From IMG/VR virus record IMGVR_UViG_3300047445_000186, positions 62,001-126,000 of that record: DNA of 64,000 bases; one strand, given 5' to 3'. The notes under the pieces are model-generated. The model made no database searches. It saw nothing but the letters and a program-made list of their open reading frames with translations, and was not told where the DNA came from. The position numbers and the translations under genes are program-made. The stretch is from a virus. Positions 47,715-62,164 of this stretch are shown piece after piece (the first letter of the stretch is position 1; each line of letters starts with the position of its first letter).

Positions 47715-47752
47715 TCCCGAAGATCAAGGTTCTCGAACAGACGATCTTGATC

Positions 47753-47758
47753 TACAAT
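47753..47758 (+). promoter_or_regulatory. tmRNA promoter -10
   Basis: TACAAT; start site predicted at about 47765, matching the start of the acceptor hairpin. Confidence 0.55.
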
Positions 47759-47764
47759 AGAAGT

Positions 47765-47846
47765 ACTGCAGCAATGCAGTGATTGCCGTAATTCGGACTG
47801 ACTTGATGGATTTTGGACGGGGGTTCGACTCCCCCCACCTCCACCA
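47765..47846 (+). ncRNA. ssrA: Permuted tmRNA, acceptor piece
   Basis: Begins with hairpin ACTGCA-GCAA-TGCAGT, then TTTTGGACGGGGGTTCGACT and CCCCC (T-arm), acceptor strand CACCTCC and encoded ACCA at 47843-47846. In one-piece tmRNA this is the 3' end; here it lies upstream of the 5' end, the arrangement of circularly permuted two-piece tmRNA. The strand pairs with GGGGGTG at 47877 with a G3-U70 wobble, the alanine identity element. Confidence 0.85.
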
Positions 47847-47876
47847 AAAGAAGCTTGATCGCAGGATTCTTCTGAT
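47847..47876 (+). other. Intervening segment between the tmRNA pieces
   Basis: 30 bases joining CCA to the mature 5' end, with AGAAG/CTTCT arms; expected to be cut out. Confidence 0.7.
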
Positions 47877-48060
47877 GGGGGTGCCATGGTTTCGACAAGG
47901 TTACTGAGATGACGTACGCGGCAGGAGAGACGACCGACCTAATCGGCGTAAATGAAGTAAATGCTAACTCTGATAGCTTCCGTCTCGTCGCCTAAACAAC
48001 GACCCCGGTGAGGTCAGCCGCCTTATAAAGAAACGGTTAGAAAATAGAAAGTTGATCAAG
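47877..48060 (+). ncRNA. ssrA: Permuted tmRNA, coding piece
   Basis: Starts GGGGGTGCCATGGTTTCGAC, the tmRNA 5' signature. Tag frame after TAATC (resume context like TAGTC): GVNEVNANSDSFRLVA then TAA at 47993-47995, ending in a small hydrophobic tail as degradation tags do. The resume codon may be GGC or GTA. The 3' boundary is approximate; a terminator follows. Confidence 0.85.
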
Positions 48061-48090
48061 CCTCGGCCGAAGTCCTTTTGATTTTTCGCT

Positions 48091-49109: not shown

Positions 49110-49138
49110 TTGTACAGGTCTCCGGGTCTGTGTATAAT
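49110..49138 (+). promoter_or_regulatory. Promoter for the CTA tRNA
   Basis: -35 TTGTAC at 49110-49115, 17-base spacer, -10 TATAAT at 49133-49138: the best sigma-70 match in the window. The following TCACTCATGCGC closely resembles the start of the main tRNA array at 54584. Confidence 0.7.
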
Positions 49139-49146
49139 TCACTCAT

Positions 49147-49221
49147 GCGCCTGTAGCTCAACGTCGGAGCAGTGGATTCTAAATCTGAAGGTCGTGGGGT
49201 AGGCACCCACCAGGCGCACCA
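49147..49221 (+). tRNA. tRNA with anticodon CTA (amber-decoding)
   Basis: 75 bases, CCA encoded. Acceptor GCGCCTG/CAGGCGC, D-stem GCTC/GAGC. Strict numbering gives loop TTCTAAA with U33 and anticodon CTA (49179-49181), purine 37; anticodon stem A-T, G-C, two G-T wobbles and one mismatch. The T-stem GTGGG/CCCAC closes an unusual loop GTAGGCA without TTCG. Two downstream genes carry early in-frame TAG, which supports an amber-decoding role. Charged amino acid unknown. Confidence 0.8.
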
Positions 49222-49237
49222 AATTCTGGAGTAGGAA

Positions 49238-49348
49238 ATGAGTAGACGCAAACAGCAGGGCGATGCGCTTTTCTTGGCCATTCTTGCCGTGGTTGTCACC
49301 CTTGTGGTGATCGCCTGGATTGTGCAGACACAGTCCACCTCTTTCTAG
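49238..49348 (+). CDS. Small single-helix membrane protein
   Basis: 36 residues after TAGGAAA. SRRKQQGDAL then a hydrophobic helix (11-29). Ends TAG with an in-frame TAA two codons later, a back-up stop that would limit read-through by the neighbouring amber tRNA. Confidence 0.55.
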   Translation: MSRRKQQGDALFLAILAVVVTLVVIAWIVQTQSTSF

Positions 49349-49351
49349 TCG

Positions 49352-49357
49352 TAAATA
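49352..49357 (+). promoter_or_regulatory. Late promoter core
   Basis: CGTAAATAGT, 25 bases before ATG 49383. Confidence 0.6.
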
Positions 49358-49382
49358 GTTTCACCAACCAAAGGAGTATTCC

Positions 49383-49727
49383 ATGAAGCTGTAGAACCTC
49401 AAGTCGTACCTTTACACGATTTCTCGCCGCGATCTCCCCCTCGCGCAACAGGCCGTTCAAGCTGCCCACGCTGGCATCGAGCACGCCTATCAATTTGGTC
49501 GCCCTGCCGATCACCATCCCTCGTACATTCACCTGACGATTCGCGACAAGCATCAGCTTGAGCAACTCCGTGCGCGTCTCCACAGCGCAGGCATCGGCAC
49601 GTCCGAATTTCACGAGCCTTACCAAGACTGGGGTCTCACGGCAATCGCTTGCTGTCTGACCGAAGACAATCGCAATCTGCTCAAGGGCCTTCAGCTCTGG
49701 CGCCTTCCAACTCAGGAGATGACATGA
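49383..49727 (+). CDS. Pth2-like peptidyl-tRNA hydrolase with in-frame TAG at codon 4
   Basis: 115 codons. ATG 49383 has RBS AAGGAG and a late promoter, but codon 4 is TAG (49392-49394); the frame then stays open to TGA at 49725. There is no ATG, GTG or TTG after the TAG until two codons before the end, so the protein needs amber decoding. It reads MKL-x-NLKSYLYTISRRDLP, then QQAVQAAHAGIEHAY, the signature helix of Pth2-type hydrolases, and GLTAIACCLTED. The MKL start also fits the late targeting-peptide group. Confidence 0.75.
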
Positions 49728-50332
49728 AAATCACGTACAACGAAAATCCAATGGCCGCAACGATCGAGCTCGATGAGCATGAGAAGCGCGAGCTCCGCAA
49801 TCGAATCGAGATCAAGGAGCTGAAGGAGCTCTTGTACGACACGCACTTCCATCTGGTCGACGAGTACGACGGGAAGTACTTCGATCTGGCGAAGGCCCGA
49901 GAGAATGTGGAGCCTTCGTACTATTACGCGGACGACACCCCGACCTGCGGTCTCGAGAAGCGAGTCGAAGAACTCTACCAGTACGCGCTCAGTGAACAGA
50001 CGAGCTCCCACGCCGGTGATTGCACGTGCTTCGCCTGCTCCTGCACGAAGTGCTGGTTCGAAGGGATGCTCGGCATTGATACGATCAAGGGACTTGGGAA
50101 GCACGAAGGTCACAAGATCTACGCAGCTTTCAGCAGGGAAGGTATGACGGTCGATCGCTTGATCGCTGAGTGGGAAGCTGCTCCTCCTATCGTCGCAACC
50201 AAGGACTGGCATGAGGGTCACACTGACCGTTGGAATGCTGAACGAGCTAAGGCGCTCGCCTGGTTGAAGGAGTACCGGACGTTGGTAGGAACCACGACGG
50301 TCACCCCGGTTGGTGTCGATCGGACTCTGTGA
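49724..50332 (+). CDS. Hypothetical protein with Cys cluster
   Basis: 202 residues, ATGA-coupled to the Pth2-like gene. CTCFACSCTKCWF near 109-121 is a dense Cys cluster (C-x-C-x2-C-x-C-x2-C) likely to bind zinc. No family recognised. If the upstream TAG is not decoded, translational coupling would fail here too. Confidence 0.7.
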   Translation: MKITYNENPMAATIELDEHEKRELRNRIEIKELKELLYDTHFHLVDEYDGKYFDLAKARENVEPSYYYADDTPTCGLEKRVEELYQYALSEQTSSHAGDCTCFACSCTKCWFEGMLGIDTIKGLGKHEGHKIYAAFSREGMTVDRLIAEWEAAPPIVATKDWHEGHTDRWNAERAKALAWLKEYRTLVGTTTVTPVGVDRTL

Positions 50333-50334
50333 AA

Positions 50335-50362
50335 CGCTATCTGTCACCTAATGCCTCTTAAT
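50335..50362 (-). repeat. 26-bp dispersed repeat, copy 3 (inverted)
   Basis: Reverse complement reads TTAAGAGGCATTAGGTGACA then GATAGCG, matching copies 1 and 2. It sits between the 49724 gene and the second TAG-containing gene. Confidence 0.75.
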
Positions 50363-50388
50363 TCACGCCTCACCCTAAAGGACTTCAC

Positions 50389-50997
50389 ATGACGTAGGTT
50401 TACCCCACTTCCTTCGACGAGCTCAAAGCAGCGATGCAATCAGGCACGCAAACGAGAGGGATCAGCTTCTGGGAGCATGGTTCACTTGTCTCACGCCGGT
50501 TCTGCGATCTCATGAACCCGAACCCGCAGATGATCTGGCGACTGCCTGCTTGGTTCACTGAGCACGCGGATTGGATTCGCGAGACGCTGATGCCTCACTT
50601 CGAGAACATCGCGATCTACCACCAATGGCACGATTGCGGTAAGCCGTACTGCAAGACGATCGACGAAGACGGCAAGGTCCATTATCCAGATCACGCTGAA
50701 ACGTCTGCAAAGATCTGGAATTCGCTCACTCAAGGACAAACTGACCCTTGGGCGAAGGACAATCGTTGGATTGGTTGCCTGATCCGCGATGACATGCTTT
50801 GTCATCAACTCCGTCCAGCCGATGCAGAGGCTTTCGCCTTGAACCCGAACGCTGTCACGCTTCTCACGACCGCATTGTGCGAGCTGCATGCGAACGCCTC
50901 CATGTTCGGAGGTCTCGAATCCGACTCTTTCAAGATCAAGTACAAGCGTCTTGATAAGTGCGGTGCTACTATTCTCAATAAACTCACGAAGGAATAA
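50389..50997 (+). CDS. HD-domain-like protein with in-frame TAG at codon 3
   Basis: 203 codons. ATG 50389 follows AAAGGA by six bases and reads ATG ACG TAG (50395-50397), then VYPTSFDELKAAMQSG in frame. The next ATG (50434) has no good ribosome-binding site. YHQWHDCGKPYC near 78-89 and HYPDHAETSAKIW near 97-109 give the H...HD...D pattern of HD phosphohydrolases. Together with 49383 it forms a pair of amber-gated genes beside a CTA tRNA. Confidence 0.7.
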
Positions 50998-56329: not shown

Positions 56330-56414
56330 CTTCAGCTATTTTGGTAGTAGCATGTGTGGGATATGCAGCCCTTTGGTGGGAAGATCACAGGTTCAAATCC
56401 TGTCTACTGATCCA
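56330..56414 (+). ncRNA. tRNA-like element, anticodon unclear
   Basis: T-arm ACAGG-TTCAAAT-CCTGT and a TGATCCA end are clear; acceptor pairing is partial and the anticodon arm does not fold in standard form. Boundaries approximate. Confidence 0.35.
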
Positions 56415-58642: not shown

Positions 58643-58752
58643 GCGCGTGTTGCGGAACGGCACACGCTGTCGGTAAAGAGCCGACGACCCAGACGTTCGA
58701 CTCGTCTTAAACTATGGAGGGGATGTAGGTTCGAATCCTACCGCGCGCACCA
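58643..58752 (+). ncRNA. Oversized tRNA-like element with two anticodon-like arms
   Basis: 110 bases. GCGCGTG/CGCGCGC acceptor, T-arm GTAGG-TTCGAAT-CCTAC, CCA encoded. Two 5-bp/7-base hairpins occur in tandem: GTCGG-TAAAGAG-CCGAC and AGACG-TTCGACT-CGTCT; only the second has U33 and would give anticodon CGA (Ser). Confidence 0.5.
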
Positions 58753-61798: not shown

Positions 61799-62164
61799 AT
61801 GAGCACCAAGATCTACCCGATGCAGCTCAGCGAGAGCACCGCGCGGAAACTCGTGTCGAACCACCTCAGGGTTCCGTTCGAACGTGAAATGCGCGCGCGG
61901 TACGGAGACGTCTCGCTCACGTACTACGCCACTCTCCAGGAGAACGGCGAGGTCGATGTGTTCGTGCACTACGTGAGCGAAGGGTTCGGCATCCAATCGG
62001 CCGGCCCGCTCATTCGCGAGAAGATCCGGCCGTACGATGCGGAGCGGATCGCCGAGCTGGAAGAACAGCGGAAGTTCGAGATCGCTCGTGCCGAGTACGA
62101 ACGCCGCCAATCAGTGAAGGCTCTCGCCGAGATCGACAAGATCAAGAAGAAGCTGTTCGCCTGA
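61799..62164 (+). CDS. Hypothetical protein with C-terminal coiled coil
   Basis: 121 residues. Strand-rich start (VSLTYYATLQENGEVDVFVH) and a charged helix at 85-120. Not recognised. Confidence 0.7.
   Translation: MSTKIYPMQLSESTARKLVSNHLRVPFEREMRARYGDVSLTYYATLQENGEVDVFVHYVSEGFGIQSAGPLIREKIRPYDAERIAELEEQRKFEIARAEYERRQSVKALAEIDKIKKKLFA

Follow-up and report, generated by a model that had tools for sequence, protein, structure and literature searches.

The gene for release factor 2 (RF2), prfB, is autoregulated by an early in-frame stop codon and +1 frameshifting, and in this way senses RF2. Among phages, the crAss-like and Lak phages that use genetic code 15 carry suppressor tRNAs that have been proposed to time their lytic genes (in part after PMC13037316 and PMC10607447), and in an engineered leak dampener, amber codons placed directly after start codons together with a co-induced suppressor tRNA cut leaky expression several-fold (PMC7969014). 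Suppressor tRNAs with no known target have also been reported: the authors describing phage XacN1 could not identify the target of its two CUA tRNAs (PMC5852040), the target of the Summit suppressor tRNA was likewise not identified by its authors (PMC9022506), and further cases are RsoM2USA (PMC8504454) and Atu_ph07, the latter with a UCA tRNA (PMC6102473). Here we describe a locus in IMG/VR virus record IMGVR_UViG_3300047445_000186, a large bacterial virus represented by 331,776 bases; the window analyzed is the 64,000-nucleotide stretch from position 62,001 to 126,000 of that record. The locus contains a tRNA with anticodon CTA and two downstream genes, one for a Pth2-like peptidyl-tRNA hydrolase and one for an HD-superfamily protein, each interrupted by a TAG codon immediately after its start (the gate). 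These very likely constitute a suppressor-tRNA-licensed module, in which full-length Pth2 and HD proteins would be made by the phage tRNA reading the early stop.

This module resembles the recoded phages in that a phage CTA or TCA suppressor tRNA would decode an in-frame stop, making expression dependent on the phage tRNA; it differs in that the phage uses the standard code, in that one gene pair is involved, each gene having one stop just behind its start codon, and in that the identity of the stop switches with the anticodon. The leak dampener is similarly organized, with a stop directly after the start codon that is opened by a co-regulated suppressor tRNA, but the dampener is synthetic and the Pth2/HD module appears to be its natural counterpart. 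As in prfB, an early in-frame stop would set the expression of a translation factor, although the key here is a cognate suppressor tRNA rather than +1 frameshifting and RF2 sensing. Phage XacN1 is itself a member of the gated family and has a tRNA of the same class as that in the window, and its HD-Pth2 fusion (GenBank BBA65512.1, with an annotated start after the TAG) is a strong candidate for the target of its suppressor tRNAs. No earlier description of gated Pth2 or HD genes was found in the open-licence literature; subscription papers lie outside that scope, and priority is not certain.

The Pth2 frame of the window opens with ATG AAG CTG before the TAG and continues for 110 open codons to a TGA at 49725–49727 (Table 1), and the first in-frame start after the TAG is the penultimate codon. 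The HD frame opens with ATG ACG before its TAG and is followed by 199 open codons; it has a later in-frame ATG at 50434 that lacks a ribosome-binding site (RBS). A sequence-only reading had named these two genes, with good RBSs and TAG at codons 4 and 3 respectively and with no usable Pth2 start until the last codons, and had noted a membrane open reading frame (ORF) ending in TAG with a TAA two codons further; all of these features are present, the membrane ORF lying between the tRNA and Pth2.

The CTA tRNA noted in the same reading is also recovered, with a match above the gathering score of 29 of its Rfam family (Table 1) and an anticodon loop of TTCTAAA, although it is missed by ARAGORN. 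It had been described as numbering cleanly. This holds for the stems, with all seven pairs of the acceptor stem, all five of the T-stem, and four of five in the anticodon stem, but is slightly generous for the loops: the GG of the D-loop is absent and GTAGGCA replaces TTCRANY in the T-loop, so that the elbow contacts normally made by these motifs are probably absent. No second convincing CTA tRNA was found in this genome, for which ARAGORN reports 44 other tRNAs and a transfer-messenger RNA (tmRNA).

An AlphaFold model of the window Pth2 product adopts the Pth2 fold, and a structure search returns archaeal and human Pth2 as the best solved matches (E down to 1.4e-5); the role as a peptidyl-tRNA hydrolase is predicted. 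Pfam scanning of single sequences gives almost no matches (E 0.047 for the window Pth2 protein with PTH2, PF01981), and 12 of 24 family members match PF01981 (best E 3.4e-7). The HD protein belongs to phrog_14850, and its H...HD...D pattern, the metal-binding signature of HD phosphohydrolases (H27, H78-D79, H99, D132 and H136) is invariant in 21 sequences, five of which match PF01966 (best E 3.9e-6). As to a specific kinship with the HD domain of tRNA 3′-end (CCA/A-adding) polymerases, an HD profile matches the HD region of the solved 'Poly A polymerase' chains 3wfo–3wfr (E 6e-5), and a structure search with the HD model gave no significant structural match. Because the two are fused as one protein in XacN1, RAS14, and pT24, Pth2 and HD are probably partners in function, their substrate presumably being the 3′ ends of tRNAs.

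Relatives of the two proteins came from protein searches, a search at the DNA level having yielded nothing useful. Early in-frame stops are present on Pth2 and/or HD homologues of jumbo and huge phages, including the isolates GAP32, CBB, BF, XacN1, RAS14, ME3, Arash, and pT24. The Pth2 frame begins M-[AT]-[QH]-TAG in GAP32, BF, CBB, XbC2, and Kaldavass, M-T-TAG in ME3, and M-L-TAG in Arash. Among huge phages (460–735 kb), the Pth2 genes of LR756511, LR756500, LR756501, and LR756504 show the starts MTH-TAG, MK-TAG, MS-TAG, and MT-TAG, and HD starts with MNT-TAG in LR745206. HD has an independent gate of its own in the majority of relatives (MT-, MK-, MM- or ML-TAG); the HD-Pth2 fusions of XacN1 and RAS14, for which an alignment scan found no IMG/VR relative, start ATG AAG TAG, and that of pT24, in the order Pth2-HD, opens with MK-TAG. 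In close IMG/VR relatives whose start can be read, the stop is at codons 2–7, mostly 3 or 4, and 46 of 56 unique gates are at codon 3 or 4. A gate on HD or Pth2 is found in 66 of 76 distinct HD-containing loci from IMG/VR or metagenome-assembled genomes (MAGs), and is kept across proteins that are only ~35% identical. The comparison of homologues that the sequence-only reading had proposed as a check therefore reveals an early TAG conserved in position, with TGA replacing it where the tRNA is TCA.

In these relatives the gated genes have been split, dropped, skipped, or started after the stop by annotators and gene callers. In GAP32 (L023:2824-3390; L and G numbers denote loci and genome records in this comparison), HD is annotated as three genes (GAP32_398, 398A and 399) owing to a conserved internal TAG (ELDTG-TAG-GDP). 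Loci L416, L417, and L418, from bins of Cyanobacteria/Melainabacteria MAGs, have a gated HD gene with a CTA tRNA ~0.7 kb after the HD start, and are probably phage contigs in bacterial bins.

The gate codon and the anticodon change together. Where enough sequence was read, one or two CTA tRNAs accompany nearly all TAG-gated loci, either close by or at another place in the record. In L015 (record G002) both gates are TGA, at codon 4 for Pth2 and codon 5 for HD, and two TCA tRNAs are encoded, and L126 combines a TGA gate with a TCA tRNA. For L343 and L357, also gated by TGA, the stretch around the locus contained no suppressor; TCA tRNAs were predicted from the gates, and searches of the whole records recovered two in L343 and one in L357, and no CTA tRNA in either. 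The same search in reverse shows that TAG-gated L362, L373, L397, and L364 hold a CTA tRNA. Four TGA-gated records carry tRNA-TCA without detectable tRNA-CTA, and stop and anticodon match (TAG with CTA, TGA with TCA) in every case where a suppressor was convincingly identified. A tree of 77 HD proteins contains at least two independent switches to TGA, forced by supported branches. Relatives that have sense codons and lack a CTA tRNA had been named as evidence that would count against a gate; only RaK2 and Hallingskeid are of this type, and with gate and tRNA both absent they represent co-loss rather than refutation. In Atu_ph07 (MF403008, L259), where the UCA suppressor had led to the prediction of a gated gene, neither a Pth2 nor an HD relative was found. 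The bodies of the suppressor tRNAs are highly diverse, with Lys, Met, Gln, Arg, Thr, and others as closest isoacceptors, suggesting that stop decoding is conserved and the inserted residue is not.

Homology-free whole-genome gate scans were performed for this phage (G000), G002, XacN1 (first 320 kb), and RAS14, with final filters that recover both gates; a hard coding-score cut misses the short Pth2 gene. This phage yields exactly two gated ORFs, Pth2 and HD. G002 yields the same two genes with TGA plus unrelated singletons, XacN1 only the fusion, and RAS14 the fusion and a TGA singleton. Pth2/HD is the only cross-genome cluster of gates, and no other conserved gated gene was identified in these scans. 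Among conserved ORF families from ~60 loci, strict gate criteria select 58 of 105 Pth2/HD ORFs but 2 of 320 in all other families, and the gate is therefore not a product of chance; a further family, with 3 of 7 ORFs selected, looks like another Pth2 branch. Purines 3′ of UAG favor suppression, and a purine follows the stop in all 56 unique gates compared with 210 of 447 gene stops in this phage (Fisher p 1.6e-17, a value that is indicative only, as the gates counted are related by descent and p-values overstate their independence). In a second, overlapping set the proportion is 97 of 98. These patterns of conserved position, coupled stop and anticodon, and restriction to Pth2 and HD strongly support the proposal of the sequence-only reading that two genes are gated by an initial TAG tied to the CTA tRNA. 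More conjecturally, that reading suggested that both genes may be made only when the phage tRNA has become abundant, and that the peptidyl-tRNA hydrolase, next to the tmRNA, might form a feedback loop in translation quality control. Because TAG terminates only 18 of the 448 called genes in this phage, the cost of suppression would be lowered.

Remote Pth2 relatives lack a start gate, and several have a suppressor tRNA 0.2–1 kb upstream. Between the tRNA and the Pth2 operon there is a leader ORF with an RBS, an in-frame stop, and a PP motif, a layout seen in eight remote loci, none in the window, and thus in few sequences (Table 1). Four leaders (L159, L160, L171 and L162) have R[A/G]PP near their ends, encoded with four different Arg codons, and L149, L154, L155, L158, and L165 have XPP without the exact R[A/G]PP motif. 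RAPP and RGPP are strong arrest motifs (PMC10951233, PMC12992588). The leader proline codons CCTCC double as an anti-Shine-Dalgarno (anti-SD) sequence, and the leader is modelled to fold over the operon RBS; when a ribosome is modelled over CCTCC, the mean unpaired probability of the RBS rises in 8/8 cases, from 0.13–0.42 to 0.35–0.89. Readthrough of the leader stop would bring a ribosome to the R[A/G]PP-like motif over the anti-SD hairpin that hides the operon RBS, and the leader is a possible suppressor-dependent translation attenuator. The ApdA, ApdP, and ApcA arrest peptides (PMC10951233, PMC12992588) and leader-peptide attenuators likewise have a short leader ORF, an R[A/G]PP or XPP motif, and an RBS-hiding hairpin, but the remote Pth2 leaders differ in having a stop before the putative arrest motif and hence a dependence on a suppressor tRNA. 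Pth2 may in this way be tied to suppressor tRNAs by two routes.

We propose that the gate operates in a phage that otherwise uses the standard code, with the stop two to three codons past the start of Pth2 and HD. Without the suppressor tRNA, ribosomes would start at the strong RBS and end after a peptide of 2–3 residues. When the tRNA is transcribed, matured, and charged it would compete with release factor at UAG (UGA in some relatives), helped by the purine-following context, and readthrough would yield the full-length enzyme. If gating is a selected function, its purpose could be that of a leak-proof AND gate, such that tRNA-processing enzymes appear only after the phage tRNAs have become functional, and the enzymes might in turn feed back on the state of the tRNAs. 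The tRNA and the gated mRNA may be co-transcribed, as a promoter-like site precedes the tRNA and the gated genes lie downstream on the same strand; the promoter function of this site is putative, and the count of such sites in the region does not exceed that in shuffled sequences. With a shared transcript, what the gate senses may be the maturation and charging of the tRNA instead of the time of transcription. This would not be general, because in relatives the suppressor tRNA can sit 3–4 kb downstream or elsewhere in the genome. More tentatively, and with some doubt, the lock codon and its dedicated suppressor tRNA may co-evolve as a matched pair in a circuit that, through locked enzymes acting at tRNA 3′ ends, reads the state of the phage tRNAs and closes a feedback loop, a new principle of natural gene control, with the gate and the leader as two layouts that have converged on the same target.

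A narrower form of the licensed module is a coherent feed-forward leak filter, in which tRNA and genes share a promoter and the gate sharpens the response and cuts leaky production of enzymes that are harmful early, with no sensing or feedback. The promoter-like site directly before the tRNA on the same strand is consistent with this, as is the placement of ambers right after start codons in the engineered dampener. The remote location of the tRNA in relatives argues against it, and the leader layout resembles a sensor rather than a plain filter. We regard it as a plausible alternative that falls somewhat short of likely.

Several observations weigh against the licensed module as a whole. The tRNA in the window may be a weak suppressor given its aberrant loops. 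HD has no start gate in the GAP32 clade (which has the internal TAG instead), ME3, or Arash, and several relatives without a scored gate nonetheless keep a CTA tRNA close by, although at least one of these (L405) looks gated on reading. Pattern searches, which would overlook degenerate tRNAs such as that of the window, recovered no convincing CTA tRNA from the gated records LR745206, LR756504, and L378. TGA ends ~53% of genes in the opal-gated G002 (L015, L173-L190; two TCA tRNAs), and strong suppression would therefore be costly there. L378 also looked like a mismatch, with a TAG gate and a tRNA called as TCA by ARAGORN, but the TCA call is doubtful, the tRNA lacking both U33 and CCA.

The gate could also reflect neutral tolerance, with the suppressor present for some other reason and TAG serving as just another sense codon anywhere. 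The mid-gene TAG in HD of the GAP32 clade and a second internal TAG in Pth2 of LR756501 are of the kind expected. In this phage there is no clear readthrough of TAG in other genes, however, and a coding-like extension follows the stop in only 1 of 18 TAG-ending genes, compared with 25 of 186 ending in TAA and 5 of 243 in TGA; moreover, the gates cluster at codons 3–4, keep the purine at the following position, and stay on the same two genes in distant phages. Neutral tolerance is thus improbable.

Tiny start-stop ORFs can cause peptidyl-tRNA drop-off, as with the lambda bar minigenes. The minigene formed by the gate (e.g. MKL-stop) could similarly be functional itself, through termination, drop-off, or ribosome loading, with the long frame entered by re-initiation or a non-standard start. 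Drop-off would suit a peptidyl-tRNA hydrolase as target, and many gates are directly followed by ATT, ATC, or GTT. Other gates are followed by AAC or ACA codons, there is no downstream RBS, and a minigene leaves the matching of stop and anticodon unexplained, making this explanation very unlikely.

A pseudogene, sequencing error, or assembly artefact might be suspected from the failure of ARAGORN to report the tRNA and from gene calls that split the gated frames, pass over them, or begin past the stop, but is already refuted by the isolates: the same structure is found in independently sequenced isolates and dozens of metagenomes, with open frames of 100–280 codons and conserved protein sequence. 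A genome in which TAG is reassigned throughout (code 15), the situation in crAss-like and Lak phages, would account for a CTA tRNA and the rarity of TAG as a terminator, and can be dismissed with similar assurance, as in-frame TAG is found in only two genes, 18 genes still end with it, and the opal relative keeps TGA as its main stop. The genome-wide scan, with Pth2 and HD as its sole hits, likewise speaks against code-4-like recoding.

With the licensed module as the preferred explanation, the suppressor tRNAs of standard-code phages acquire a specific and conserved candidate target. Earlier searches for targets would have failed because the stop is 2–3 codons past the start, and gene callers place the start beyond it or omit the gene altogether; annotations of the gated genes in GAP32, CBB, BF, XacN1, and others need correction. 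The arrangement suggests a compact natural switch that makes expression of a gene conditional on the function of one particular tRNA, and whose lock and key are, unusually, both readable from sequence and co-evolving. It bears on the role of phage suppressor tRNAs and on why large phages carry tRNAs, tmRNA, and Pth2 together.

Table 1. Coordinates of the gated module and neighboring elements in the window, and of leader ORFs at remote Pth2 loci.
Feature	Location	Strand	Evidence or motif
Suppressor tRNA, anticodon CTA, CCA encoded, aberrant D- and T-loops	49147..49221	+	Rfam RF00005, 43.4 bits
Pth2 RBS, AAAGGAG	49370..49376	+	Sequence reading
Gated Pth2-like gene, MKL-TAG-NLKSYLYTISRRD...	49383..49727	+	Homologues; model pLDDT 92.7; best PDB matches are Pth2 structures
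Pth2 gate codon, TAG at codon 4, next base A	49392..49394	+	Sequence reading
HD RBS, AAAGGA	50377..50382	+	Sequence reading
Gated HD-superfamily gene, MT-TAG-VYPTSFDEL...	50389..50997	+	phrog_14850, E 2.4e-49; profile match; model pLDDT 95.2
HD gate codon, TAG at codon 3, next base G	50395..50397	+	Sequence reading
Phage tmRNA, tag ANSDSFRLVA	47754..48086	+	ARAGORN; Rfam RF01850, 130.9 bits
Promoter-like site directly 5′ of the tRNA, TGTACA-16-TATAAT (or TTGTAC-17-TATAAT from 49110)	49111..49138	+	10/12 matches
36-aa membrane ORF between tRNA and Pth2, ends TAG	49238..49348	+	Sequence reading
202-aa gene, ungated, ATG overlaps Pth2 stop (ATGA)	49724..50332	+	Sequence reading
Leader MRNKQL-TAG-QVRGPP-stop	L159:5514-5612		RGPP
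Leader MKSNQAECW-TAG-TYNYSRGPP-stop	L160:5498-5609		RGPP
Leader MTRIRDIPR-TAG-SIRAPP-stop	L171:4600-4702		RAPP
Leader ML-TGA-CIRAPPC-stop, beside TCA tRNA	L162:4990-5073		RAPP
Other leader sites	L165:5510, L155:3167, L154:5517, L158:107		In-frame stop, XPP motif, anti-SD hairpin

The ungated 202-aa gene between Pth2 and HD has no Pfam or PHROG match and is probably translationally coupled to Pth2. The tmRNA region (47733–48086) has overlapping Rfam matches to betaproteobacterial tmRNA and permuted tmRNA. A tmRNA is also found near the module in L009, L013, L014, L015, and L019 and near the XacN1 suppressor tRNAs, and is a frequent but not constant neighbor.

Three further tRNA features are unusual. 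A 107-base Rfam tRNA match at 58643–58749 is unreported by ARAGORN and may contain an insertion or intron-like element. A tRNA called with a two-base anticodon (tg) at 56341–56414 has an unusual anticodon loop and lies inside a phage tRNA array. Finally, tRNAs called with anticodon TTA (ochre) are situated beside normal tRNA clusters in RAS14 (L068) and at L142:11135-11213.

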